This document shows, in pieces, positions 20,779 to 42,159 of a stretch of 52,238 nt of DNA; position 1 is the stretch's first letter, and each line of letters opens with the position of its first letter. A program made the position numbers and the translations under genes. Source of the stretch: a bacterium. Lineage in GTDB: Bacteria > Joyebacterota > Joyebacteria > Joyebacterales > Joyebacteraceae. Location of the stretch: assembly GCA_025774245.1 (NCBI GenBank), contig JALGWI010000011.1, positions 1 to 52,238 of the forward strand, in the 5' to 3' direction. The notes under the pieces were generated by a model that made no database searches, had not been told where the DNA came from, and saw nothing but the letters and a program-made list of their open reading frames with translations.

Positions 20779-22119
20779 ATGACCCCGTCTGACCTCTGGG
20801 CCAGGTGCCTTGAGACGATCCGCGAAGAAACGGAGCATCAGAGCTACCAAACGTGGTTCGAGCCCACGAGAGCGGTCGAGTTGACGGACGACGTCATCAA
20901 GATCGAGGTGCCGAACCGATTCTTCGCGGACTGGCTTGAAGAGCACTACAGCGGACTCGTACGGCGTGCCATCAAGGATGGCTTGGGGCGTGAGGTTACG
21001 CCGGTCTTCCAGGTCTCGCAGCGGCGACCCGACCAGTACGAGCCCGTTTCTACCAGGCGGATTGCACCTCCGCCATTGACCATAGCAGCGGCTGATGATT
21101 GCCAGCTCAACCCACGCTATACGTTTTCAACGTTCGTCGTGGGTAACAGCAATCGTTTTGCCCAGGCTGCCACTATGGCGGTGGCGGAGGCGCCCGCCGA
21201 AGCGTATAACCCGCTCTTTATGTATGGAGGCGTCGGGCTGGGGAAGACCCACCTGATGCAGGCGGTCGGTCACTATATCAGGGAACACCGCCCGGAGCTC
21301 TCGATCTACTACGTCTCGTCCGAGACGTTCATGAACGAGCTCATCACGGCGATCCAGCGCGGGACGACGCTCGAGTTCCGGGACAAGTACCGCTGCCGGG
21401 ACGTTCTGCTGATCGACGACGTGCAGTTCCTGGCGGGGAAGGAGAGCACGCAGGAGGAGTTCTTCCACACCTTCAACGCTCTCTACCTTGCGCACAAGCA
21501 GATCATACTGACGAGTGACAGACCACCGAAGCAGATCGCGACACTCGAGGAGCGGCTCGTGTCGCGGTTCGAGTCCGGGCTCGTCACGGACATCCAACCC
21601 CCGGATCTCGAAACGAGAATCGCCATTCTGCACGAGAAGGCGGAGCTGGACGGGATTTCGATTCCCAACGACGTAATACATTTGATTGCTAATAGCGTTA
21701 CGTCGAATATCCGCGAGCTGGAGGGATCGCTCGTCCGGCTCTTAGCCTTCTCTAGTTTGACGGGGAGCGAGATCACCGTCGACCTCGCCAAGGAGGTCCT
21801 GGGCGAGTTCCTCGGGAAGCCGCGCGGTCCCATCTCGGTCGCTCGCATCCAGCAGGCCGTCGCCGAGACGTACGGCGTCCCCGTCGAGAAAATGAAGGCG
21901 CGTGGCCGGGCCAGCCAGATCGCCCACGCGCGCCAGATCGCCATGTTCCTCTCGCGCGAGCTCACGCACCTCTCGCTCGCCCAGATCGGCGAGCACTTCG
22001 GTGGGAGAGACCACACCACCGTGCTCCACGCGCAGAGGAAGATCGCCGGAGAGGTCTCGAACACCGGCCAGATCCAGCGGGACGTCGACAACCTCAGGAG
22101 GATGCTCCGCGCCTCCTAG
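20779..22119 (+). CDS. dnaA: chromosomal replication initiator DnaA
   Basis: 446 residues, normal length. Domain I (1-75) with WARCLETIREETEHQSYQTW, a short linker domain II, AAA+ domain III with Walker A YGGVGLGKTH at about 149-158 and Walker B LLIDDVQFL, and domain IV ending with the GRDHTTVLHA box-recognition signature. ATP-DnaA binds the upstream boxes and opens the origin. No strong ribosome-binding site precedes the ATG, so weak or regulated translation is possible. Confidence 0.97.
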   Translation: MTPSDLWARCLETIREETEHQSYQTWFEPTRAVELTDDVIKIEVPNRFFADWLEEHYSGLVRRAIKDGLGREVTPVFQVSQRRPDQYEPVSTRRIAPPPLTIAAADDCQLNPRYTFSTFVVGNSNRFAQAATMAVAEAPAEAYNPLFMYGGVGLGKTHLMQAVGHYIREHRPELSIYYVSSETFMNELITAIQRGTTLEFRDKYRCRDVLLIDDVQFLAGKESTQEEFFHTFNALYLAHKQIILTSDRPPKQIATLEERLVSRFESGLVTDIQPPDLETRIAILHEKAELDGISIPNDVIHLIANSVTSNIRELEGSLVRLLAFSSLTGSEITVDLAKEVLGEFLGKPRGPISVARIQQAVAETYGVPVEKMKARGRASQIAHARQIAMFLSRELTHLSLAQIGEHFGGRDHTTVLHAQRKIAGEVSNTGQIQRDVDNLRRMLRAS

Positions 22120-22149
22120 GCAGACGCGCGTCCGTCCCCCGACCGACAC

Positions 22150-22178
22150 GGTCGACCCCGTCTCCGGCGGGGTCGACC
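22150..22178 (+). terminator. hairpin after dnaA
   Basis: GGTCGACCCCG (22150-22160) and CGGGGTCGACC (22168-22178) form an 11-base perfect stem with a 7-base loop, 31 bases after the dnaA stop. No U-tract follows. Likely a terminator or transcript-stabilising structure separating dnaA from the transporter genes. Confidence 0.55.
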
Positions 22179-22552
22179 TGTGTTCGACCACCGGCGCCGT
22201 CATCAACAACGACACCTGAGCAACCCGTGGAGCGATCGGGGAGGAGCGTGGAAAACAGGGGGGCCGTAACGCTTCCCGTGGAGAGTTCTGAACGAGGAAG
22301 GCTGTTGTCCAGCGCTTCTCCACCGTCGGCCTCGGAGCCCGTCGGAAGCCGAATCGCCTGCGCGCCGGGCCTCTCCTCGGCACCAACGGCTCCCGTGAGG
22401 GCGCATTCGAACATTTCCACAGCCCCTACTACTTCTGCTATATTCTTCTATGGTAATAAGTAGTAGAACCCAGATGCAACAAGACGTCACGGAATAGTTG
22501 TTTGCCAACCCCTCCGCTCACCCGAAAAGCACCAGAGTAGAAGAGGGTTCTC
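22179..22552. other. gene-free spacer between dnaA and the FetAB-like genes
   Basis: No convincing gene. A 9-base inverted repeat CTACTACTT (22426-22434) / AAGTAGTAG (22458-22466) flanks an AT-rich loop containing TATATTC and TAATAAG. It could be an operator or an RNA hairpin about 90 bases upstream of the ABC transporter. A weak DnaA-box-like TTTCCACAG also occurs at about 22414. Confidence 0.4.
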
Positions 22553-23320
22553 TTGACCAAACCGAAGCTCGCTACCGAACGTGTCACCCTGACGAGGACC
22601 AGGTACGGTGCGGATGGTAGCCCTCCCGAGCCGGTCCTCTGCGACGTGAGCCTCGAGGTCGCGGCGGGGGAGGTCTTCGGGATCATCGGACCGTCCGGGG
22701 CGGGAAAGACCAGCCTCCTGAGACTCCTGAATGGCCTCGAGACGCCCGACCGCGGGCGGATCCTGCTCGACGGAGAGGACATCTCGGGCCTCGACACGAT
22801 CGATGTCAGGCGGCGCGTCGGCATGGTCTTCCAGACGCCGGCGCTCTTTCCGGGCACGGTGGGGGAGAACGTCGGCTACGCCCTCGAGATCGCCGACGTC
22901 CCGGGAGCGACGCGGGAGGCGAAGGGGCTCGTGTGCCTCGACCGGGCGGGCCTCTCGGACGATTTCTGGTCGAGGGACGCGCTCGAGCTCTCGCAGGGGG
23001 AACAGCAGAGGGTGGCGATCGCCCGGGCGCTCGCGGCTGAGCCAGAGGTCCTCCTGTTGGACGAGCCGACCTCAGCTCTGGACCCCTCGGCGGCGGCCCG
23101 CATCGTCGATCTCGTCGGATCGCTCCGCCGGGACCTGGGGATGACGATCGTCTTCGTGACCCACCTGATGGAACAGGCTCGCCGGATCTGCGACCGGGCG
23201 CTGGTTCTGGTCGAGGGCCGGGGCGTCGAGGAGGGCGAGGTGGCGGCCCTCTTCGACGCGCCATCGAGCGAGTTCACGCGACTCTTCATCCAGGGGCGGC
23301 TCGACGGAGGTCGGCGATGA
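22553..23320 (+). CDS. ABC transporter ATPase, FetA/YbbL-like
   Basis: 255 residues from a TTG start with GAGGG five bases upstream. Walker A GPSGAGKTS near residue 47, Q-loop (MVFQTPALF), an ABC signature variant LSQGEQQRVAIARAL, Walker B LLLDEPTSALD and the H-loop VFVTHL. The downstream gene overlaps by four bases (ATGA) and encodes a UPF0014 permease, so the pair matches the FetAB (YbbL-YbbM) exporter implicated in iron homeostasis and oxidative-stress resistance in E. coli. The transported ion here is inferred. Confidence 0.85.
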   Translation: MTKPKLATERVTLTRTRYGADGSPPEPVLCDVSLEVAAGEVFGIIGPSGAGKTSLLRLLNGLETPDRGRILLDGEDISGLDTIDVRRRVGMVFQTPALFPGTVGENVGYALEIADVPGATREAKGLVCLDRAGLSDDFWSRDALELSQGEQQRVAIARALAAEPEVLLLDEPTSALDPSAAARIVDLVGSLRRDLGMTIVFVTHLMEQARRICDRALVLVEGRGVEEGEVAALFDAPSSEFTRLFIQGRLDGGRR

Positions 23321-24102
23321 CCGGGTACTTCGAGCTCTCGTGGCTGGACGTCGTCATCTCGCTCGTGCTTGTGGGCGTGCTCCTCATCGTGTCGCTCGTG
23401 CAGAGGCTCGGGATCGGCAGGGGAGTGTTCGCAGGCGCGATCCGGACCTTCGTGCAGCTCATGCTCATCGGTTACGTCCTCAAGTTCGTCTTCGACCTCT
23501 CGAAGTGGTACTGGGTGCTCCTGATGCTCGCGGTCATGCTGGTCGTGGCGGCCAGGACGGCGGCCACGCGCGACGAGTGCCGACAGCCGGGCCGGATGAG
23601 GATTGCAGGAACGGCCATCGTGGCGGGCGTCGTGGTCACGATGGTCACCGTCGTGGCCTTGGTTATCAGAATCAGGCCCTGGTACCTGCCGCAGATCCTG
23701 ATCCCGATCTCCGGCATGGTGATCGGAAACACCATGAACGCCGTCTCGCTCACGACCTCGAGGTTCCGGAGCGAGATGGGACATCAGCGCGGCCAGGTCG
23801 AGGCGGCGCTGGCGCTCGGGGCCACGTCGACCCAGGCGTCGGCGAGGGCCTTCAGGCAGGGGATGAAGGCGGGGCTCGTTCCGACGATGAACGCGCTCAT
23901 GGTGGTAGGCCTCGTGCAGCTTCCCGGGATGATGAGCGGGCAGATCATCGCCGGCGTCCTGTCGGTGCAGGCGGTGAGATACCAGATCGTCGTGATGTAC
24001 ATGATCGCGTGCGGCGCGGCCGTCGGATCGCTCGTCGCGGCCGTGCTCGTGCGACGCCAGCTCTTCACCCAGCGCCATCAGCTGAGATCGGAGTACCTGT
24101 AG
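23317..24102 (+). CDS. fetB: UPF0014 permease, FetB/YbbM-like
   Basis: 261 residues with about seven membrane helices. The conserved stretches of the family are seen: IRTFVQLMLIGYVL, LIPISGMVIGNTMNAVSL and GLVQLPGMMSGQIIAG. It is the membrane half of the exporter with the preceding ATPase. Because its start codon overlaps the ATPase stop, translation is coupled. A weak GC hairpin with TTTT at about 24105-24140 may terminate this two-gene unit. Confidence 0.87.
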   Translation: MTGYFELSWLDVVISLVLVGVLLIVSLVQRLGIGRGVFAGAIRTFVQLMLIGYVLKFVFDLSKWYWVLLMLAVMLVVAARTAATRDECRQPGRMRIAGTAIVAGVVVTMVTVVALVIRIRPWYLPQILIPISGMVIGNTMNAVSLTTSRFRSEMGHQRGQVEAALALGATSTQASARAFRQGMKAGLVPTMNALMVVGLVQLPGMMSGQIIAGVLSVQAVRYQIVVMYMIACGAAVGSLVAAVLVRRQLFTQRHQLRSEYL

Positions 24103-24143
24103 CCCGGAGCGGGTTTCGGGCGCGCGGCGCCGGGGGTTTTGGC

Positions 24144-24172
24144 TTGCAGGTGGCCACGCCCGACCATATAAT
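24144..24172 (+). promoter_or_regulatory. strong promoter of dnaN
   Basis: TTGCAG (24144-24149), 17-base spacer, perfect TATAAT (24167-24172), about 85 bases before the dnaN start. The best sigma-70-type match in the window. Confidence 0.75.
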
Positions 24173-24258
24173 GACCGCGGAAGGCGAGGCCTTTCGTCGG
24201 CTCGGTGTGTCTCGCGACGGTGGGCCACGCTTCGACGTCAGCTACCTGGAGGTTGCCA

Positions 24259-25380
24259 ATGAAGTTCTCGATTGCGCGGCAGGATCTGGACAAGGCGATC
24301 CAGAGGGTCCTGACCGTCGTCTCGCCGAAGACGACGCTTCCGGTCCTCGCCAACTTCTTGGTGGAGGCGGACGGCAAGAAGAACGCGATCTCGATCACGG
24401 CGACCGACCTCGACATGACGGTGACGACGCGCGCGGAAGCTCAGGTGGAGGAGGGGGGAGCGGCGACGCTTCCGGCGAAGCGGTTCGCCGAGATCGTGCG
24501 GGAGTTGAGGGAAGCGGACGTCAAGCTCGCGGCCGAGGCGGAGGAGATCTCGATCCGCTCGCGCAAGAGCAAGTTCAGGATCGTCGGGATTCCGACCGAG
24601 GAGTTTCCGACTCTGCCCAAGAGCGACCCGGCGAGCGCCTTCTCGGTCGACGCCGAGGGGCTCGTGCGGATGATCGACAAGGTCGCCTTCTGCACATCGA
24701 AGGACGAGACGAGGCCCTCGCTGAACGGCGCGTTCTGGGAGTTCACCGCCGACAGCATGGGCATGACGGCGACCGACGGCCATCGGCTCGCCAGCTTCCG
24801 GACGAAGGGGAAGTTCAAGAGCCTGGCCGGGAAGAACATGATCGTGCCACCGAAGGCCCTCTCTCACGCCGTCAGGATCATCGGGGCCGAGGCCGACGGG
24901 GCGGTCAAGGTCTCCGTGCACGAGAACCACGTCGCCTTCTTCATCGGATCGACGACGATCAACTCCCGACTTCTCGAGGGCCCGTTCCCGAACTACCAGC
25001 AGGTCATCCCGAAGGACAACGACAAGGAGTTCCTCGTCGATCGAGCCGAACTCGCGAGCGCCGTGCGGAGGGTGGCGGTCCTCTCGGACGCGCTGACGCA
25101 CCAGGTGCGGATGACGCTCTCGAAGAAGAAAGTCGAACTCGTCGTGTCGACGCCGGACGTCGGCGAGGCGAGGGAAGAGATACCGGGCAAGTTCAGCGCC
25201 GCCTCGATGGAGGTCGGCTACAACGCCAACTACCTTCTCGACGTCCTGAAGCACATCGATGGGGAGAAGGCGAAGTTCCTTCTCGGCACCGCCGTCGGCG
25301 CCGCCGTCGTGAGCGCAGTCGACGGGGACGAGAACGAAGACTACGTTTGCCTCCTCATGCCCCTCCGGCTGACTTCCTGA
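24259..25380 (+). CDS. dnaN: DNA polymerase III beta subunit (sliding clamp)
   Basis: 373 residues from the ATG at 24259 with GGAGG six bases upstream (an in-frame ATG-like extension back to 24205 has no such site). Begins MKFSIARQDLDKAIQRVLTV and shows the three repeated clamp domains, with the YNANYLLDVL segment and a C-terminal LLMPLRL matching the usual MPMR(L) end. It encircles DNA and tethers the polymerase. It leads the dnaN-recF-dciA-gyrB-gyrA run. Confidence 0.96.
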   Translation: MKFSIARQDLDKAIQRVLTVVSPKTTLPVLANFLVEADGKKNAISITATDLDMTVTTRAEAQVEEGGAATLPAKRFAEIVRELREADVKLAAEAEEISIRSRKSKFRIVGIPTEEFPTLPKSDPASAFSVDAEGLVRMIDKVAFCTSKDETRPSLNGAFWEFTADSMGMTATDGHRLASFRTKGKFKSLAGKNMIVPPKALSHAVRIIGAEADGAVKVSVHENHVAFFIGSTTINSRLLEGPFPNYQQVIPKDNDKEFLVDRAELASAVRRVAVLSDALTHQVRMTLSKKKVELVVSTPDVGEAREEIPGKFSAASMEVGYNANYLLDVLKHIDGEKAKFLLGTAVGAAVVSAVDGDENEDYVCLLMPLRLTS

Positions 25381-25399
25381 CGACCGGGAGGCGACACCG

Positions 25400-26529
25400 G
25401 TGTGGCTGAGGACGCTGAGGCTCGAGAACTTCCGGAACTACGAGACGCTCGAGCTTTCGCTTGAGCGAGGCTTCAACTTCTTCGTCGGCCCGAACGGTTC
25501 GGGCAAGACGAGCATCCTCGAGGCCGTGTCGTACCTCGCGGTCGCTCGCTCGCTTCGCGGCGCCAGCGACGGGGAGGTCGTGAAGTGGGGCGCGTCGGGA
25601 TTCGGCGTGGGTGGGGAAGTGGTGGTGGGGGAGTCGTCCCGCAACGTCGTGCTCCGGTACTCGAAGCCAGGAGGCAAGGATGTCGGCGTCGACGGAGAGG
25701 CGCTCGCGAAGCTCTCCGACCTGGTCGGCGTCCTGAGAGTCGCCTGGTTCTGTCCCGAAGACACGTGGATCACCAAGGGCGGGCCGGGGGCGAGACGGAA
25801 GCTCGTCGACCTCACGCTCTGCCAGATCGATGCGAGGTACCTCGCGGCTCTCACGAACTACAAGAGAGCACTGAAGCAGCGGAACGAGGCGCTCCTCTCG
25901 TGGTCGCCCGATGAGGAGTCCGACCGGATCGTCGAGGTTTGGACCGAGCGCTTGGTGAAGTACGGAAGCACGGTCGTCGCGGGGAGGCTCGCTCTCATTC
26001 CCCGGTTCAGCGAGGCCGTGTCGCGATACCAGTCGGCCGTCGCGGGCGAGGACGAGCTGACGCTTGAGTACCGAAGCTCGGTCGCGCTGGGAGACGGCGA
26101 CGGGACGGGGGGCGACCCCGCGCACGACGAACGAGCCGTCGCCGAGTTCTTCCGCAGGGCACTCGAGCGGAAGGGCGAGGACGAACGGCGGCGCGGGTTC
26201 ACGCTGGTCGGCCCGCACCGCGACGATCTCGACGTGAAACTGAACGGACGGACCCTCCGTGCGTTCGGTTCGCAGGGGCAGCACCGGACCGCAGCGATCG
26301 CGCTCAAGCTCGGCGAGGCCGCGGTCCTCGACGTCGACGGACAGGGGGTGGTCGTCCTCCTTGACGACATCCTCTCGGAACTCGACGAGAGACGGGCGGG
26401 CTCGCTGGTGGAGCTCGTCGGGACCCACGGTCAGGCTCTCATGACCTCGACCAGGTCCATGCCGGGAGATGCGGAGCGGGGCGGAGAGAACACGATGTTC
26501 CGCGTGGAGGCGGGGGAGGTGAGGAGGAA

Positions 26530-26533
<4 letters not shown>
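25400..26533 (+). CDS. recF: DNA replication/repair protein RecF
   Basis: 377 residues from a GTG at 25400 (GGGAGG eight bases upstream). An SMC-like ATPase: start LRTLRLENFRNYETLEL, Walker A GPNGSGKTS at about 30-38, signature FGSQGQHRTAAIALKL and Walker B VVLLDDILSELD. It helps load RecA at gaps with RecO/RecR. The stop codon overlaps the GTG of the next gene (GTGA). Confidence 0.95.
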
Positions 26534-29260
<2,727 letters not shown>

Positions 29261-29339
29261 ACCGGAAGCGGAGCGGCCACGCGTGGACCGCACCGCGCGC
29301 CGCTGACCGGACCGCACGGCGGTAGCGAGCGAGGGGACG

Positions 29340-31766
29340 ATGCCACAGACCGAGAAGATCATCCCGGTAGTCATCGAAGACGAGATGAAGAAGTCGTACA
29401 TCGATTACGCGATGAGCGTGATCGTGTCGCGGGCGCTCCCGGACGTGCGGGACGGCCTCAAACCCGTGCAGCGTCGCATCCTCGTCGCGATGGACGAACT
29501 GGGACTCGCGCACAACAAGGGCTACCGGAAGTCGGCGAAGATATCCGGCGACGTCAACGGCAACTACCATCCGCACGGAACGAGCGCGATCTACGACGCG
29601 ATGGTCCGCATGGCGCAGGAGTTCTCGCTCCGATATCCGCTCGTCGACGGCCAGGGCAACTTCGGCTCGATCGACGGTGACAGCGCAGCGGCCGAGCGGT
29701 ACACCGAGGCGCGGATGACGAGCGTGGCCGGGGACCTCATGTCGGACCTCAAGAGGGACACCGTCGACTTCGTTCCCAACTACGACGAGACGCGGCAGGA
29801 GCCGGTGGTTCTTCCGGGGAAGCTCCCGAACCTCCTGATGAACGGCGCGTCCGGCATCGCCGTCGGCATGGCGACGAACATCCCGCCGCAGAACCTCCGT
29901 GAGCTCATCGAGGGCATCGTCCGGGTGATCGACGATCCCAAGGTCCCGGACGAGGAGCTTCTCAAGATCGTCAAGGGCCCCGACTTCCCGACCGCCGGGA
30001 TCATCTTCGGACGGGCGGGGATCAGGGACGCGTACCTGACGGGGCGGGGCAGGATCATCGTTCGCGCCCGCGCGAACGCCGAGACGCACCAGAACGGCGC
30101 CGAGTGCATCGTCATCACCGAGATCCCGTTCATGGTCAACAAGTCGAACCTGATCGAGGCGATCGCCGATCTCGTCAGGGCCGGCAAGATCGTGGGCATT
30201 CGGGACATCCGCGACGAGTCCGACCGCGACGGGATCCGGGTCGTCATCGATCTCAAGCGCGATGCGCAGGCGGCCGTCATTCTGAACCAGCTCTATAAGA
30301 GCACGCAGATGCAAACGACGTTCGGGACGATCCTGCTGGCGCTCGTCGAGGGCGTCCCGAAGGTGCTCACCCTCAAGCAGATGATGGCGCACTTCGTCGC
30401 GCACCGCGAGGAAGTCATCGTCAGGCGGACCAAGTTCGATCTCGCGAAGGCCGAGGCACGCGCCCACATCCTCGAGGGTCTCAAGAAGGCGCTCGACCAC
30501 ATCGACGAGATCATCCAGCTCATCAAGAGGTCGAAGGACGTCGACCACGCCCGGACGCAGCTCATGAAGAAGTTCAAGCTGTCGGAGATCCAGGCGCAGG
30601 CGATCCTCGACATGCGGCTGCAGCGGCTCACCGGCCTCCAGAGGAAGAAGATCGAGGAGGAGTACAAGGAGGTCATCAAGCTCATCGCCAGCCTGAAGGG
30701 GATCCTCGAGAGCAGGTCGAAGGTGCTTGCGATCATCAAGGAGGATCTTGCGGCGGCGGCAAAGGCCTACGGCGACGACCGCCGGACCGAGATCGTCGAG
30801 GCGACGACCGACTTCACGATCGAGGACCTGATCGCCGAAGAGGACATGGCGATCACGATGTCCCATTCCGGCTACATCAAGAGGCTCCCGGTCGGGACCT
30901 ACCGGCGCCAGCAGCGCGGCGGCAAGGGCGTCACCGGCATGGGGACGAAGGAGGACGACTTCGTCGAGCACATGATGATCGCCTCGACCCACGACTACAT
31001 CCTGTTCTTCACGCAGAGCGGCCAGTGTCACTGGCTCAGGGTCCACGAGATCCCGCAAGCCGGACGAGCCGCGAAGGGGAAGGCGATCATCAACATCCTC
31101 CAGCTCAACCCCGGCGAGTCTCTGAAGGCGTTCGTCTCCGTTCGCGAGTTCGACGACGATCACTTCATCGTGATGGCGTCGAGGCAGGGGATCGTGAAGA
31201 AGACGCGCCTCTCGCAGTTCTCGCACCCGAGGCGAGGGGGCATCCGCGCCATGTCGATCGACAAGGGCGACGAGCTCATCGACGCGGCGATTACGGACGG
31301 GAACCACGACGTCTTCCTCACGAAGAAGCTCGGCAAGGCGATTCGCTTCCGCGAGAACGACGTGCGCGAGATGGGAAGAACCGCGCGCGGCGTCCGCGGG
31401 ACGCTCCTCGAGAAGGGAGACGAGGTCGTCGGCATGGCCGCAGTCGTCGGCGAGGAGGGGACCGTCCTCTCGATCACGTCGAACGGGTACGGGAAGCGCA
31501 CGAAGATCTCCGACTACCGCGTCATCAAGCGCGGCGGAAAGGGCGTCATCTCGATCAAGGCCAGCAAGAGGAACGGCCCCGTCGTCGCGGTTCGGGTGGT
31601 GAACGACGCGGACGAGGTGATGATCATGACCGCGGGCGGCGTGATGATTCGCCTGCCGGTCAAGGGGATCTCTCTCATCGGGCGCAACACGCAGGGCGTC
31701 CGGGTGATCAAGGTATCGAGCGGGGACCGGGTGGTCGACGTCGCCTGCGTGGTCAGCGAGCAGTAG
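29340..31766 (+). CDS. gyrA: DNA gyrase subunit A
   Basis: 808 residues. Breakage-reunion domain with [21 protein letters not shown], quinolone-region sequence [19 protein letters not shown] and the catalytic tyrosine Y121 in [11 protein letters not shown]. Coiled-coil with [20 protein letters not shown], then the C-terminal beta-pinwheel. The GyrA box reads QQRGGKG instead of QRRGGKG (one change), so this is still gyrase rather than ParC. ATG start, with a GAGGGG upstream. 79 bases after gyrB. Confidence 0.96.
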
Positions 31767-35548: not shown

Positions 35549-35665
35549 GAGCCGCCTGCGCGCTTCCTTCGTGCGGGACGGCCGTGGCACGTGGTACGCT
35601 TGCCTCGCGCGGCGAGCGTGCCGCGCGGGGCACTTCCGGCGCGACCCCGTCGACGGGAGCGACGC

Positions 35666-38182
35666 ATGTACGGATTCCTCGCCACGGCTCTCCTTCTTCT
35701 GTCTATAGGCCTTCTCGAAACCGCCCTCGGTCCACGGGGGGCACACCTCACCTCACTCCTGGCACTCGCTCTCCTGGCACCCGTCCTCGTCCACCTGGCC
35801 GCCGGCATCGATCGGCGGAGCGGGCTCCGCGCCTTCGCTCTGGCGGCCGGCGCGGCCTGCGCCGTCCTGTGGTTCGCGGGGCTCAGGCACGGGGCGGCGG
35901 GAGCGGCATCGTACCTGGTCCTCGCCTCGTCGTTCGCCTTCCTCGCGCTCGCGCAGGATCCATTTGAGGCGACGAGGAGAGGGCTCGCGTCGGCCCTCGC
36001 GCTCACCGTGCTCGGGTACGGCGCCTTCATCGCCGTCCGGGACCACGCGACACTCTGGCCGCTTCTCTATCCGCTCTCGACGCGCGTCACCGCGGCCGTC
36101 GCCTCGTTCTTCGGGACGTCGGCGCGCCTCGGTCCGACCTACTCGGGGTTCTGGCTCGTCATCGCGTTCGGGGTCGCGTTCGCCGCGCGGGCGGTCGTGC
36201 GACAGCCCGGGTCGGCCGGGCGCCGCGGGCGGGCGGGTTCCCCCGGAGTCGCTGCGAGGAGCCTCCTCGCCGTGGCGTTCCTCGTCGTTCTCCCCGCGGT
36301 CGCGATCGGCCTCCGGAGGCTCGTGCCGGTCGGCGTCGCCGTGGGCGCTCCGGTCCACCTTCTCGTCTGGCGCGTGATCGCGTACGTCCTCCTTCTCGTT
36401 CCGCTGGCAGTCTTCCTCCGGGCACACCCGCTTCCCGAGGGCAGGGGCAAGGGCAGGGGCGGACGCGTCGGCCGCGGGCCCGCTCCGCTTGCCCTGTCGC
36501 GGCGGCGTTCGCGCAGACGGTCGGGGTCGGCGGGCGGATCGCCCGGGCCCGCCATCGCGGCGGCGGTCGTGCTCCTCGTCGGACTCGGCCTGCTCGTGTT
36601 CAGGCCGGGCGTTCCTCCGAAGACGGGACGCGTCCTCCTCGACGCGCGTGGCGAGTTCGATCTGGAGCCGCTCCGGTGGGGCCAGTACGGGCTCGACGTC
36701 CCGCAGGGCGCCTCGATCGCGAACCTGCCTCCCTTCCTCGAAGCGCGTGGCTTCCCGGTCACGGTGCACGAGAAGATGTTGAGCGACTCGCTCCTCGCCG
36801 GTCACGACGTTCTTCTCGTGATGAACCCCGGCTGCGCCTTCGAGGAGTCCGAGCTCGAGGCGGTCTGGTCGTTCGTGGAACGAGGTGGCGGCCTCCTCGT
36901 CCTGGGTGACCACACCAACATCGGCGGGACGATGGAGCCCCTGAACACGCTCCTCGCTCCCTCGGGCGTTCGAATCGAGTTCGATTCGGCGATCCCCCTG
37001 GCGTCCCGGTGGACGTGGTACGACTGCATGCGATTCCATCCGCATCCGGTGACGCGGGGGATCCGCGACGAGAACGACGTCAAGATCAGCGTCGGCGCGA
37101 GCCTCGCTCTCCCATCGCGGGCGGTGCCGCTCCTCTCGGGACGCGACGCCTTCTCGGACGCCGGAAACTGGGAGAACGAGGACGGCGCGTATCTCGGCAA
37201 CATGAGTCACGACGCCCGCGAGGCGCTCGGCGACCTTCCGCTCGCGGCGGTCGTCCGGCACGGGCGGGGGAAGGTCGTCGTCTTCGGCGACACGTCGACG
37301 TTCCAGCGGACCGCGATCTACAACTCGCACGAGTTCGTGGTGCGGCTCTTCACATACCTCGCGTCCCCGGACGTGGACGGGCTCCCTTCGGGCGCGAGGA
37401 TCGTCGGCGCCGTCCTGGTCGTCCTCGGCGCCGCGGGCCTCTTCCTCGCCGGCGCGGCGGCGCTTCCCGTGCTCGCGGTCGCGTGCGCCGCGGGAGCAGT
37501 CCTCGTCTCTGTCGCGGGACGTGTTGCGCGCGTCGAGACGGAGCGGTTCGTGCCGGGAACGCCGCTCGCCTGGATCGACCTCGCGCACGGGAACCGGGTC
37601 GACCTCCACATCGGGCAGGACGACGGGATCAACGGCTTCGTCGACCACCTCTGGCGTGGGGGTTACGTCCCGCTCGGCGCGAAGCGCTTCGACGCGGAAG
37701 CGCTCGACGGAGCGGCGCTCGTGGCGACTATCGCGCCGGCGCTGCCGTTCGCTCCGGCGGAGCGACGGGCGCTCGTGAGCTACGTCGACGGGGGAGGGCT
37801 CCTCGTCGTCGCGACCGGCTACGAGGAACGGTCGGGCGCGGAACAGCTCCTCGACGACTTCGGCTACGCCATCGACGCGACCCCGATCGGGGGTGCGCAC
37901 GTGGCCGAGACCGCGTTCGAGGGTCACGACGTCATGATGCACGAGTCGTGGCCCGTGCTCGGAGGGGGAGAGGGCCGCGAGGTCTGGGTCTCGTCGTGGG
38001 GCTACCCGCTCGTCACGTTTGAGCGGATCGGTCGCGGCGGCCTCATCGTGATCGGCGACTCGCGTTTCCTCTGCGACGTCAAGCTCGAGAGCCGCGACCG
38101 GTTCATCGAGCCGAACATCGATTTCCTGCGGACCGCGCTGGAGACGGCCCGCGACAGGATCGCTTCGGCGGAGGAACCGTGA
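35666..38182 (+). CDS. large membrane protein with two GATase-like extracytoplasmic domains (1)
   Basis: 838 residues from the ATG at 35666. I do not know the family with certainty. N-terminal 320 residues hold about eight to nine membrane segments. Then a soluble domain beginning GRVLLDARGEFDLEPL with VERGGGLLVLGDHTN and a C-terminal GDTSTFQ block that resembles DUF4350/GATase1-like folds, two further membrane helices, and a second domain of the same kind (LVSYVDGGGLLVVATGY to GDSRFLCD). The membrane part has an exosortase-like layout (LYPLSTRVTAAVASFFG then GPTYSGFW) but no catalytic cysteine there. Paralogue of the next gene. Confidence 0.75.
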   Translation: MYGFLATALLLLSIGLLETALGPRGAHLTSLLALALLAPVLVHLAAGIDRRSGLRAFALAAGAACAVLWFAGLRHGAAGAASYLVLASSFAFLALAQDPFEATRRGLASALALTVLGYGAFIAVRDHATLWPLLYPLSTRVTAAVASFFGTSARLGPTYSGFWLVIAFGVAFAARAVVRQPGSAGRRGRAGSPGVAARSLLAVAFLVVLPAVAIGLRRLVPVGVAVGAPVHLLVWRVIAYVLLLVPLAVFLRAHPLPEGRGKGRGGRVGRGPAPLALSRRRSRRRSGSAGGSPGPAIAAAVVLLVGLGLLVFRPGVPPKTGRVLLDARGEFDLEPLRWGQYGLDVPQGASIANLPPFLEARGFPVTVHEKMLSDSLLAGHDVLLVMNPGCAFEESELEAVWSFVERGGGLLVLGDHTNIGGTMEPLNTLLAPSGVRIEFDSAIPLASRWTWYDCMRFHPHPVTRGIRDENDVKISVGASLALPSRAVPLLSGRDAFSDAGNWENEDGAYLGNMSHDAREALGDLPLAAVVRHGRGKVVVFGDTSTFQRTAIYNSHEFVVRLFTYLASPDVDGLPSGARIVGAVLVVLGAAGLFLAGAAALPVLAVACAAGAVLVSVAGRVARVETERFVPGTPLAWIDLAHGNRVDLHIGQDDGINGFVDHLWRGGYVPLGAKRFDAEALDGAALVATIAPALPFAPAERRALVSYVDGGGLLVVATGYEERSGAEQLLDDFGYAIDATPIGGAHVAETAFEGHDVMMHESWPVLGGGEGREVWVSSWGYPLVTFERIGRGGLIVIGDSRFLCDVKLESRDRFIEPNIDFLRTALETARDRIASAEEP

Positions 38183-38224
38183 GGTCCGTGAGGGAACAAC
38201 ATTGACGGCCGTCAGGAAGGAACC

Positions 38225-40834
38225 ATGAGGACTGCGAGGTTCGAGACGGCGTGGCTCGCGCTCTGGTGCGCGGTGCTCGGCTGGGACGCGCTCTCGCCGC
38301 ACGTCCTCGATCCGTGGTCCCGGCTCGCCGTCGTGACGCTCGTTCTGGCCGCGATCCTCCTCGCGACGTCGCGGGAGCGCGACGTCGACCGGTTCTCTCC
38401 CGGGCTGGCCGTCGGCATGGCGGTCGGGTGCGGCGTGGTGGGGGTGGCGCTTCCATGGCCCGAGGGGTTCGGGTTCGTTCTGGCCGGGGCGGGACTCCTC
38501 GTCTCGGCGATTCCCGTCGCGCCGGATGCAGTTCGGGGCGCCGCCCGTCGCGCACTCGTCGGGCTCGGGGCGCTCCTCGTGCTTCTCGCGGCGGCGGGGC
38601 AGCTCTATCGCCTGACGGAGGCCGCGACTCAGGGGGTCGATCTGCTGTCGGGCCCGCTCGCGTTCCTCTACCGCGTCGTCGGCGTGCGCGCCGCCGCGGA
38701 CGCGCCGTTCGTTTACTTCCAGGGTGTCGGCGGGCTCTTCACCGTAACGGCGACCTTCGAACGGGTCGTCGGCCACCCGCTCGCGCTCTTCGTGGTCGGT
38801 GGACTCGCGCTGCTCCTGACGGCACACGGGCGGAGGATCGGGTGGCGGCGACCGGCCGTGCTGCTGGCGTCGGCCTCCGCGTTCGCGATCCTGAGGGCGC
38901 TCGCCCTCGGCCTCGTTCTGGGGGAAGCCGCGGGGCCGTCGATCTACTGGCTCAGGGGATGGACGTTCGGCGGCCTGCTCGTTCTCGCGGTCTTCCTGGC
39001 GGCGGCGATGCCGCGGGTAAGAGCGGGGCCGGCGTCGTCGCGCGCTTCCAGGAGCGGGCCGGCGACCTGGCGGGCGTTCGCGGGCGGAAGGGGCGTCGCC
39101 CTCCTCGCGTCGGCGATCGCGTTCGGAGCGCTCGCGGCCGCGAGCCTGGGCGTCTTCGACCCAGGAACGCCGAAGGCCGGGCGCGTCCTCATCGACGAGC
39201 GACATTCGAACTGGGCGTGGAGCACCATCGAGCTGAACACTGAGAGCTACGGGACGCAGACCGTCTACAACTACTCCGAGCTCCTCCGGTACCTCGGCCA
39301 CTTCTACGAGACCGAACCGAGCTTCGCCGCGCTCACCGACAGCCTCCTCGCGACGACCGACGTCGTCATCCTCAAGACGCCGACGCAACCGTACGAGGAC
39401 GACGAGGTCGACGCGCTCGTACGGTTCGTGGAGCGCGGCGGCGGACTCTGGCTGGTCGGCGACCACACGAACGTCTTCGGAACGAGCACGCACCTGAACA
39501 AGGTCGCCCGTCGCTTCGGACTGCGCTACCGGTACGACGCCGTGACCGATCTCGTGACCAGCGGCCGACAGCTCTACGAACGGCCGCGGCTCTTCCCGCA
39601 TCCCTCGATCGCGCACCTTCCGCCGATGCTCCTGGCGACGTCGTGCAGCGTCGCCGGTCCTCCGCTCGGACGTCGCGTCATGCTCGGGCGCTCGCTTCTC
39701 GTCGACGAGCTCGACTACTCCGTGAACGCGTTCTTCGGGAACTTCGCGCAGGACGCGCACGAGCCGTTCGGGAACGTCCTGCAAACGGTGGCCGTGACGC
39801 GGGGCCGCGGCCGGGTGCTCGCCTTCTCGGACAGCACGATCCTATCGAACTTTTTCCTGTTCATCCGTGGGAAGCGGGAGCTGGCGCTCGGGAGCGTCGC
39901 GTGGCTCATGCGGGAGAACCAGAGGGCGTGGCTCCGGCCGGTCCTGCTGGCGGGCGCGCTGGCGGCGCTCATGCTCTGGATGTGGCTTGTGTCCGGGACG
40001 TCGCGGTGGGTCGCCCTCGCGTCACTGGCGGTCGGCGCCGCGCCCGCGTTCTCTGTCGCTGCGGTCGCGCTCTCCGCGTGGGTCGCGGGATGGTCGGCGC
40101 TGCCCGAGCCCGCGGAACCGATGAGGGAGGCGGCGTTCATGAGGGAGCGGTGCGCCTTCCACGTCCCCGAGCGGCGGCACCTCGCCGACAACTCGCCGCA
40201 CAGCTACTACACGTTCTACATCTGGACGCAGCGGGTCGACTACGTCCCGCGCACCGATCCGCTGGCGCGCTGCATCGAGGACGCCGACGCCACGGTCATT
40301 CTGAACCCCCGCGGCGAGTTCACCCCGGAGATGCTCTCCGACCTCGAGGCGTACGTGCGCGGCGGCGGCGGGCTCCTGGTGCTCGACCGTTCGTACGTTG
40401 CGGAGTCGACGGCCAACGCGGTGCTGGCGCCGTTCGGTCTCGCGTTCGAGCCGACGCAGTTCGACAGCGTGCTCGTCTTCGACGTCGTCTCGGGGGACTC
40501 GTTCCTGATCGATCGCGCGGGTGTCGTCGTGGGCGGCGAGCCCGTCCTCGAGTTCCTGGACGGGAGGAGCGCGCTCGCCCTCGCGCGCGTCGGCGAGGGG
40601 GTGGTCGTCGCGATGCCCGCCGCCGACAGCTTCTCCGACGAGGCGCTGGGGACGACCTCGCGCGTCCCGGACGAGCGGCAGCTCGGGCTCTACCGTCTCG
40701 AGTTCAGGATCTTCGACGAGCTGCTGCGCGGCGAGGAAGATCTGCGGGGCGACGAACACCCGCCGGGCGACGAGTCTCAGCAGAGCACCGAGATCTCGTT
40801 TGGGGACGATCTCCCGCAGGGCCCGGCGCCCTAG
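38225..40834 (+). CDS. large membrane protein with two GATase-like extracytoplasmic domains (2)
   Basis: 869 residues, same architecture as the preceding gene: about eight N-terminal membrane helices with an exosortase-like stretch (PLAFLYRVVGVRAAADAPF and FTVTATFERVVGHPL), a first soluble domain with VERGGGLWLVGDHTNVFG and GRGRVLAFSDSTIL, two membrane helices, and a second soluble domain with VRGGGGLLVLDRSYVAE. The C-terminus is acidic and low in hydrophobic residues. Shared sequence blocks (VERGGGL-x3-GDHTN, GN-x3-DA) show the two are tandem duplicates. Last gene of the SPFH operon. No catalytic residue set recognised, function unknown. Confidence 0.75.
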   Translation: MRTARFETAWLALWCAVLGWDALSPHVLDPWSRLAVVTLVLAAILLATSRERDVDRFSPGLAVGMAVGCGVVGVALPWPEGFGFVLAGAGLLVSAIPVAPDAVRGAARRALVGLGALLVLLAAAGQLYRLTEAATQGVDLLSGPLAFLYRVVGVRAAADAPFVYFQGVGGLFTVTATFERVVGHPLALFVVGGLALLLTAHGRRIGWRRPAVLLASASAFAILRALALGLVLGEAAGPSIYWLRGWTFGGLLVLAVFLAAAMPRVRAGPASSRASRSGPATWRAFAGGRGVALLASAIAFGALAAASLGVFDPGTPKAGRVLIDERHSNWAWSTIELNTESYGTQTVYNYSELLRYLGHFYETEPSFAALTDSLLATTDVVILKTPTQPYEDDEVDALVRFVERGGGLWLVGDHTNVFGTSTHLNKVARRFGLRYRYDAVTDLVTSGRQLYERPRLFPHPSIAHLPPMLLATSCSVAGPPLGRRVMLGRSLLVDELDYSVNAFFGNFAQDAHEPFGNVLQTVAVTRGRGRVLAFSDSTILSNFFLFIRGKRELALGSVAWLMRENQRAWLRPVLLAGALAALMLWMWLVSGTSRWVALASLAVGAAPAFSVAAVALSAWVAGWSALPEPAEPMREAAFMRERCAFHVPERRHLADNSPHSYYTFYIWTQRVDYVPRTDPLARCIEDADATVILNPRGEFTPEMLSDLEAYVRGGGGLLVLDRSYVAESTANAVLAPFGLAFEPTQFDSVLVFDVVSGDSFLIDRAGVVVGGEPVLEFLDGRSALALARVGEGVVVAMPAADSFSDEALGTTSRVPDERQLGLYRLEFRIFDELLRGEEDLRGDEHPPGDESQQSTEISFGDDLPQGPAP

Positions 40835-40862
40835 ACGGATCGGACGCCCGCAGACACGGAGA

Positions 40863-40889
40863 AGCCGGGGGCAACTCGCGCCCCCGGCT
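40863..40889. terminator. terminator between convergent genes
   Basis: AGCCGGGGGC (40863-40872) and GCCCCCGGCT (40880-40889), a perfect 10-base stem with 7-base loop, between the plus-strand gene ending at 40834 and the minus-strand gene ending at 40948. Suitable for both directions. No long U-tract. Confidence 0.65.
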
Positions 40890-40947
40890 CGCGCTTCCGG
40901 AATCGATCGTGCCCCCGGACCTTGCGGCGTCCGCGCTTCGCGCCCGC

Positions 40948-42021
40948 CTACTCCTCGTCCAGGAACATCTCCTTGATCTTGCCCCAGCTGCTCGGCTCTG
41001 TCGGACTGAGACAGGCCGCGCTGCTGGTGCACGCGCTTCCTATCGTGCAGCTGGGACCGACGGTGCAGTTGTCCCCGACCGTGCAGCCGAGGCCCGCCGT
41101 GCAGCCGTCCCCACCAGTGCAGGCGTCTCCGACCGTGCAATCGTCCCCGCCGGTGCAGCTCGTGCCGTCCGTACATCCGGGACCGCCGGTGCAGTCATCT
41201 CCACCGGTGCAGGCCGGGCCTGTCGTGCATCCACCCGGGTCGTTCGTGCAGGCCGGACCGTGGGTGCATCCCAGGCCGCCCGTGCAACGGTTTCCTCCGG
41301 TGCAGGTGCCGCCGATCGTGCAGGCGTTCGGGCCGTCGGTACAACCGAGGCCGTTGGTGCAGCCGTCTCCGAACGTGCAGGCGTCCGGCCCGCCGGTGCA
41401 ACCCGGACTGATCGTGCAGTTCGTGCACTGGCTGCAGGTGTGGCCGTCCGTGCAGAGACCGCCGACCGTGCACCCGCCGGCGCCCATCGTGCAGGCCGGA
41501 CCGACCGTACACCACGGTCCCGCCGAACAACCACCTCCGCCGGTGCAGCTGGCACCCGCCGTGCATGTCTGCGGTGACCACGTGCAGTAGTCGCCCTGCG
41601 TGCAGCCGGAGCCGAACGTGCAGTTCGACCCGATCGTGCAGTCCTGACCGAGCGTGCACATCGTGCCCTTCGTGCACTCCGGTCCGGCCGTGCAGGCCGG
41701 GTCCATGGTGCACTCGGGGAACGCCGTGCAGACGTCCCACGTGCAGGCTGGTCCTTCGGTGCAGAGAGGTGCGGTCGTACATGGGCCCGACGTGTCGTCG
41801 TTGTAGCGGAGCTCGTCAGACTCGCTGATCTCCACCATCGGGTCGCCGACGTTCCACACGCGTCGGGCCATCCCGTTGGCGGAGAGCTCGGAGATGTGGT
41901 GGTAGAGAGGAGACTCCACCCAGTCGACATCGGGCCGCGAGAAGGCTCCGGTCGTGAGACCAAGCATCAGGAAAGCAACCAGCATGATGCCGGCACCGAC
42001 CAGCCTTGAGCGGTAGCGCAT
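40948..42021 (-). CDS. secreted cysteine-threonine hexapeptide-repeat protein
   Basis: 357 residues from the ATG at 42019-42021, with AAGGAGGTG seven bases upstream. A signal peptide (basic start, LVGAGIMLVAFLMLGLTTGA), a 55-residue spacer, then about 270 residues made of 44 short units, 41 of which begin Cys-Thr: C-T-x-G-x-x, spaced six residues with occasional 3, 5 or 7 residue units. Shifted by four, the unit reads [LIV]-G-x-x-C-T, that is the left-handed parallel beta-helix hexapeptide with Cys at the inward small-residue place. The C-terminal cap is SSWGKIKEMFLDEE. Predicted secreted solenoid with about 44 buried cysteines, as disulfides or metal ligands. Family unknown to me. Confidence 0.85.
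   Translation of the reverse strand: MRYRSRLVGAGIMLVAFLMLGLTTGAFSRPDVDWVESPLYHHISELSANGMARRVWNVGDPMVEISESDELRYNDDTSGPCTTAPLCTEGPACTWDVCTAFPECTMDPACTAGPECTKGTMCTLGQDCTIGSNCTFGSGCTQGDYCTWSPQTCTAGASCTGGGGCSAGPWCTVGPACTMGAGGCTVGGLCTDGHTCSQCTNCTISPGCTGGPDACTFGDGCTNGLGCTDGPNACTIGGTCTGGNRCTGGLGCTHGPACTNDPGGCTTGPACTGGDDCTGGPGCTDGTSCTGGDDCTVGDACTGGDGCTAGLGCTVGDNCTVGPSCTIGSACTSSAACLSPTEPSSWGKIKEMFLDEE
40990..41780 (-). repeat. 18-base-period coding repeat array
   Basis: The plus strand shows gtgca every 18 bases (with a few 9, 15 or 21 base steps) through about 790 bases; this is the coding repeat of the Cys-Thr hexapeptides. The codons for Cys are almost always TGC and for Thr ACG or ACC, so repetition is partly at DNA level. 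Confidence 0.85.
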
Positions 42022-42129
42022 ATCTCGCCACCTCCTTTCCGTAGTGGATTCGTCGCGTGGCCTCGCCGGGAGCTCGGCCCGGTTTGGGTGGCCGTCGCGG
42101 GCCCTCGGTGGGACACAGACCGACACGCT

Positions 42130-42159
42130 ACCATACACCAGCATAGACAGCAACGTCAA
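42130..42159 (-). promoter_or_regulatory. candidate promoter of the Cys-Thr repeat gene
   Basis: Minus strand TTGACG (42154-42159), 18-base spacer, TATGGT (42130-42135), giving a leader of about 100 bases before the start at 42021. It is in the gap after the beta-helix gene, so the two secreted proteins can be transcribed separately. Confidence 0.5.

Follow-up and report, generated by a model that had tools for sequence, protein, structure and literature searches.

Insect antifreeze proteins of the beetle type are built from the repeat TCTxSxNCxxAx with C2–C8 disulfide bridges (PMC8038014), and the antifreeze protein of the spruce budworm presents TxT on 15-residue left-handed coils (PMC9210311). 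Paired ranks of this kind, TxT or TCT, are needed in the known insect ice-binding faces (PMC8038014, PMC9210311). Tandem hexapeptides are also found in the acyltransferases LpxA, LpxD, and GlmU (Pfam Hexapep, PF00132). On viral contigs, phage proteins with 10–30 units of C-x-[LFI]-G-[ND]-x match phrog_5353, phrog_2154, and Pfam Hexapep at up to 93 bits (IMG/VR loci L052, L058, L076, L114, L263, L267, L268, and L272); their function is unknown in PHROGs. Short conserved ends on many unrelated exported proteins of one genome are represented by T9SS CTD, PEP-CTERM, MYXO-CTERM, and LPXTG. The gene described here encodes a protein that shares features with each of these groups. It lies in a 52,238-nt stretch (positions 1 to 52,238) of contig JALGWI010000011.1 (GCA_025774245.1) of a member of Joyebacteraceae, phylum Joyebacterota; this whole stretch is referred to below as the window. 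The features of the gene are listed in Table 1.

Table 1. Features of the Cys-Thr repeat gene and its upstream region in the window.
Feature	Position	Strand	Basis or remark
Cys-Thr repeat gene, 357 aa	40948..42021	-	ATG start at 42021, TAG stop at 40948-40950
Shine-Dalgarno AAAGGAGGT	42030..42038	-	Read from sequence; GGAGG to ATG, 9 nt
Sigma-70-like promoter candidate TTGACG-18-TATGGT, 5' of the repeat gene	42130..42159	-	Consensus match only
Predicted signal peptide, residues 1 to ~28 (MRYRSR + hydrophobic core + ..TGAFS)	41938..42021	-	Translation, hydropathy heuristic, modelled helix
Non-repetitive linker, residues 29-80, acidic near its end	41782..41937	-	Translation; homologue search empty
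Cys-Thr-x-Gly-x-x repeat, residues 81-337, 44 Cys	41011..41781	-	Unit counts, codon comparison, Hexapep match and controls
C-terminal tag SPTEPSSWGKIKEMF and non-consensus LDEE end, residues 339-357	40951..41007	-	Tag pattern and matrix scores

We consider this frame to be a real, translated gene, as shown by its Shine-Dalgarno sequence, the synonymous codon changes at its fixed residues, and its conserved C-terminal end. Between repeat units, the fixed Cys, Thr, and Gly codons differed mostly at the third base, with values of 0.21, 0.48, and 0.73, respectively, vs. 0–0.17 at bases 1 and 2. At these fixed positions, Cys is encoded by two different codons, Thr by three, and Gly by four. Such synonymous variation makes selection at the protein level visible. 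The third-position GC content of the gene was 0.83 and resembled that of the neighbouring genes (0.84–0.91). Long antisense frames overlap the gene, for example the ORF 39643–41577 (+), and the repeat protein lacks homologues in the searches described below; both would suit a spurious reading of a GC-rich repeat whose true gene lies on the opposite strand. We regard this as hardly credible, since the Shine-Dalgarno sequence, the signal peptide, and the tag preceding the stop all fall in the minus-strand frame, and both the third-base variation and the third-position GC content speak against it. Nothing comparable to these three elements was noticed in the antisense frames. A preliminary description of the gene had named a lack of translation, recognisable for example by missing homologues, as grounds for abandoning its proposal. 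These grounds apply in part, as homologues conserving the repeat were not found in our searches; the tag and codon evidence, however, contradict an untranslated frame.

The N-terminus was scored as signal-peptide-like by a simple hydropathy rule, and a helix at residues 6–23 was the best-scored part of the single-sequence AlphaFold2 model. Export, as proposed in the preliminary description, is supported. Recounting of the translation confirmed the 44 Cys and 41 Cys-Thr pairs reported there; the three remaining Cys are followed by Ser (2) or Leu (1). Gly occupied the third position after Cys (C+3) in 33 of the 42 repeat units long enough to count. The period of six given previously is exact for 35 of the 43 Cys-Cys spacings (81%) and does not hold for the others, which are of 7 (five cases), 5 (one case), and 3 residues (two cases, within CSQCTNC). 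These departures correspond to one-residue insertions and a mid-repeat CSQCTN irregularity. No super-period of two or three units was detected in the variable columns of the repeat, nor was any alternation between odd and even units. The 329 residues of the mature protein include 61 Gly, 50 Thr, 44 Cys, and 22 Pro, with Pro at C+4 in 16 units. The protein is acidic, with a net charge of approximately -28. At the DNA level, a pattern of three units (the 18-base unit TGYACNNNNGGNNNNNNN taken three times) occurred 16 times in the window vs. none in 100 dinucleotide-preserving shuffles. This pattern was absent from the rest of the own genome and from 19 other genomes of the phylum.

The preliminary description read the repeat as [LIV]-G-x-x-C-T and stated that it obeys the hexapeptide rule of left-handed beta-helices (LbH). 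In this register, C+2 of the unit is position i of the rule, Cys is i+4, and Thr is i+5. The Pfam Hexapep model matched the repeat protein with 32.3 bits, above the curated cut-off of 27. Since low-complexity sequence of period six can mimic such a match, controls were run. The reversed repeat gave no match, three within-unit shuffles gave none, 15.2 bits, and none, and exchange of C+2 with C+5 also abolished the match. Shuffling of each column among units, with column make-up kept, preserved it at 28.3 and 30.3 bits. The match thus depends on hydrophobic residues at C+2, because it was lost in shuffles that move them and retained in column shuffles. Large hydrophobic residues were indeed found at C+2 in 16 of 42 cases vs. 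9 of 84 for C+4 and C+5 combined (p = 0.0006). At the same time, position i was Leu, Ile, or Val in only 10 of the 42 units, and 26 had no large hydrophobic residue there, including eight with Gly. The preliminary description is thereby corrected on both sides: the signature itself is real, but strict obedience is absent, and the rule acts in this repeat as a bias and not as a law. From its sequence, the repeat is best read as a degenerate hexapeptide solenoid.

In line with this reading, the best sequence relatives of the protein in the PDB were LpxA, GlmU, and LpxD, though at E-values of 0.007 or worse (phmmer). NCBIfam acyltransferase models gave partial matches only, far below their cut-offs (31.6 bits vs. 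a cut-off of 242.5 for LpxD). The profile search suggested in the preliminary description has yielded a match to an annotated repeat family, Hexapep; a confident match to a known family was another of the grounds named there for abandoning the proposal, and it applies in part. In addition to having no complete acyltransferase match, the repeat protein differs from these enzymes in its predicted export, its Cys-based core, and its weak position i.

A search of the 19 other genomes of the phylum, including two of the same genus, revealed no homologue of the repeat protein and none of its linker. Nor did relatives emerge from 386 sampled genomes, from phage and plasmid records, or from viral contigs. 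The phage Cys-hexapeptide proteins share with the repeat protein tandem hexapeptides with Cys at i+4, Gly at i+1, and six-residue spacing, which is strict in the phages. In contrast, they have Leu or Phe at i almost throughout and commonly Asn or Asp after Gly, and the residue following Cys is not fixed as Thr (T, K, E, D, and S occur). No signal peptide was seen in them, and the WGxIK tag is absent. Many carry a conserved C-terminal domain, NVDGSGR..EAGCFxG, which the repeat protein does not have; its match to phrog_5353 (E = 0.001) covered the repeat only. On these sequence features, we call the phage proteins the closest analogues of the repeat protein and not members of its family. With 10–30 Cys hexapeptide units, they are closer to it than the insect antifreeze proteins, which had been considered its only analogues. 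As the phage proteins show, placing Cys at i+4 of long hexapeptide tracts is a solution that recurs.

Several other candidates were rejected. Matches in related genomes (E = 1e-3 to 1e-5, 26–37% identity to part of the repeat, frames of 241–375 aa) were taken as ordinary hexapeptide acyltransferases, judging by length and identity. Three plasmid records (E ~1e-4, 27–37% identity), annotated as glycoside hydrolase, LPXTG-anchored, and hypothetical proteins, were taken as composition matches. The other matches to the pattern C-x-x-G-x-x in the 386 genomes were low-complexity DNA, for which the reversed control also scored, and were not accepted as homologues. Most matches of the DNA-pattern scan of viral contigs were likewise out-of-frame low-complexity DNA, and only proteins of the form C-x-[LFI]-G-x-x were retained. 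A tblastn search of phages with the repeat protein returned nothing, although low-complexity masking may hide matches.

Structure prediction was also suggested in the preliminary description. AlphaFold2 modelling of the repeat protein alone gave a pLDDT of 38. When 15 phage Cys-hexapeptide proteins were added to the alignment, which biases the model towards LbH, the value was 45. The latter model contained period-six strand pairs (pLDDT 55–67) in two stretches where the repeat is most regular, and few in its irregular middle part. Both models were mostly below a pLDDT of 50, and a Foldseek search with the model gave no match below E = 1.8.

Taken tentatively, with a chance that we put a little short of even, the product of the gene would be an exported structural rod, that is, a tagged, degenerate left-handed hexapeptide solenoid with inward Cys that serves as a surface or extracellular scaffold. 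Judging from the N-terminal sequence, the signal peptide would send the protein through the inner membrane via Sec. A putative lineage-specific machinery for sorting or surface attachment would read the C-terminal SPTEPSSWGKIKEMF tag, the sharing of which is itself observed. According to the sequence signature, 43–44 units of C-T-x-G-x-x could fold as a thin, degenerate left-handed beta-solenoid of approximately 14 coils of 18 residues, with Cys (i+4) directed inward and Thr (i+5) outward. The buried Cys, whether as free thiols or in disulfides formed locally, would replace most of the missing aliphatic core. The result would be a stiff acidic rod acting as a scaffold rather than as an enzyme. 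If this fold is right, an extracellular bacterial solenoid can exchange most of its aliphatic core for Cys, and the protein would offer testable material for a rod that can be switched by redox state or loaded with metal.

The same repeat could also belong to a chain with no regular solenoid, flexible or polyproline-II-like and rich in Gly, Cys, and Thr, which is cross-linked through Cys into an extracellular matrix, a glue, or a metal sink. The composition of the mature protein and the Pro residues at C+4 fit such a chain, as do the low pLDDT values of the models and the tolerated spacings of 3, 5, and 7. We consider it somewhat unlikely, however, because the hydrophobic residues are placed non-randomly within units, and the C, T, and G columns are strictly kept while their codons vary synonymously, which speaks for a register that matters. 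A regular fold of another kind would be a flat right-handed beta-solenoid of the Tenebrio type, with 12 residues and two units per coil and one Cys-Cys bridge per coil. The repeat protein resembles the Tenebrio/Dorcus antifreeze proteins in having Cys every six residues, Thr beside Cys, and a small residue at C+3, which is the exact spacing of TCTxSxNCxxAx (PMC8038014). Moreover, 44 Cys is an even number, and this fold needs no aliphatic core, which suits those units whose C+2 residue is Gly, Asp, or Asn. The beetle-type structure PDB 1ezg did appear in the phmmer list, but at a non-significant E of 0.3. The repeat protein differs from these proteins in its bacterial origin, its 44 Cys over 257 residues, and the concentration of hydrophobic residues at C+2, which varies in the beetle repeat. 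The whole protein contains TCT only twice, a two-unit coil finds no counterpart in an alternation of odd and even units, and searches of the own genome revealed neither DsbB nor VKOR. Taken together, these points make a 12-residue solenoid improbable.

Ice binding by threonine ladders, which the preliminary description regarded as conceivable, would find its basis in the Thr column present on nearly every unit (41 of 44). The paired TxT or TCT ranks of the insect faces are missing, however. Thr directly precedes Cys in only 3 units, and Thr would lie on all faces of the solenoid and not on one. The ice-binding face known from the insect motifs is thus not supported by the translation, and we rate this function as very improbable. 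The spruce budworm protein is similar in a possible left-handed solenoid with surface Thr; the repeat protein differs from it in having no TxT face and six-residue units throughout.

The state of the Cys in the preferred left-handed solenoid deserves separate consideration. Searches for DsbB and VKOR gave nothing in the own genome, which is 97% complete, although both were positive in control genomes; thioredoxin-like proteins are present. Since neither enzyme was found, there is no ground for assuming a full disulfide ladder, and the Cys may also be free thiols or form metal sites. An electron wire, which the preliminary description also called conceivable, finds no backing in heme or Fe-S motifs: the protein contains no CxxCH and, as related motifs, only CSQC and CTNC. 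Several tagged exported proteins of the own genome are Cys-rich as well (up to 33 Cys), despite DsbB and VKOR not being found.

The C-terminal tag is an element, recognised here by pattern and matrix, that is absent from the preliminary description. The repeat protein ends in SPTEPSSWGKIKEMFLDEE. A consensus derived from 38 carriers of the own genome reads [ST]-P-V-E-[DEAP]-x-[ST]-W-G-x-I-K-[AG]-[LM]-[YF]-R, followed by the stop. The repeat protein departs from it by Glu in place of Ala/Gly and by LDEE in place of the final Arg; the invariant W, G, [IV], and K are present at its extreme C-terminus. On a matrix built from the 38 carriers it reached 39.2 bits (the training range starts at 32.5), and the next best of 70,177 sequence windows in this stretch reached 6.1 bits. 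Each of the 20 genomes of the phylum contained the pattern WGx[IV]Kxx[YF] close to a stop 6–41 times, and the reversed pattern not once. A stricter tag ending in Arg-stop was present in all 20 genomes, with 58 exact sites in the own genome and 10–55 in the others, vs. zero in reversed controls. Outside the phylum, it occurred 4–19 times per genome in a few other families and 0–2 times in the rest of the 386 genomes. In the second sampled phylum, that of one tag-rich family, 38 of 47 genomes contained it.

Signal-peptide-like starts were scored by the simple hydropathy rule in 46 of the 54 tag carriers with a complete start, vs. 1 of 15 other genes of the window. The bodies of the carriers are unrelated and contain right-handed beta-helix, lamin-tail, or MAM-like domains, or no known domain. 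Tag membership places the repeat protein among dozens of predicted exported proteins. In eight carriers scanned, the tag was matched by no Pfam or NCBIfam model, and no open-access paper containing the literal tag strings tried was retrieved by a PMC search. The tag resembles T9SS CTD, PEP-CTERM, MYXO-CTERM, and LPXTG in that a brief conserved terminus is common to many exported proteins of one genome that are otherwise unrelated; it differs in its length of approximately 16 residues, the lack of a hydrophobic segment, and the nearly invariant WGx[IV]K with final R. It may be the trace of a sorting route that has so far escaped recognition. A broader proposal, possible and in our opinion doubtful, is that WGx[IV]KxLYR is the recognition signal of an undescribed export or surface-anchoring system in at least two phyla. 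The repeat protein would be a cargo of this system, namely, an extracellular solenoid with a stacked-Cys core on the plan of the phage Cys-hexapeptide proteins. The tag may matter more than the fold: a short, nearly invariant terminus on roughly 60 exported proteins per genome, occurring in two sampled phyla and lacking a Pfam or NCBIfam model in the carriers scanned, is how an overlooked sorting system would show itself, and a search for its receptor is now directly possible. Tandem arrays of the tag were observed in two loci, L253 and L254.

The convergent neighbour of the repeat gene encodes an 869-aa membrane protein with Pfam ABC_transp_aux and DUF4350 domains, to which none of the 19 further genomes from the phylum gave a match. 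On the other side of the repeat gene, a PTS-EIIA/antiporter pair is conserved in three other genomes. The repeat gene is situated in an accessory stretch of approximate extent, because no counterpart of it or of the 869-aa neighbour was found in the other genomes of the phylum while the PTS-EIIA/antiporter pair is conserved. The neighbour has a tandem paralogue of 863 aa; the two membrane proteins (35591–40834, +) are 30% identical and contain DUF4350, ABC_transp_aux, and GIFT-like domains. The window is probably located near the replication origin, since dnaA, dnaN, recF, gyrB, and gyrA, as read from translations, are clustered at 20779–31766 (+). The gyrB frame opens with a long Lys/Ala/Pro-rich repeat (26813–27200, +; tandem repeat at 26934–27163), which resembles a histone-H1-like tail before gyrase B.
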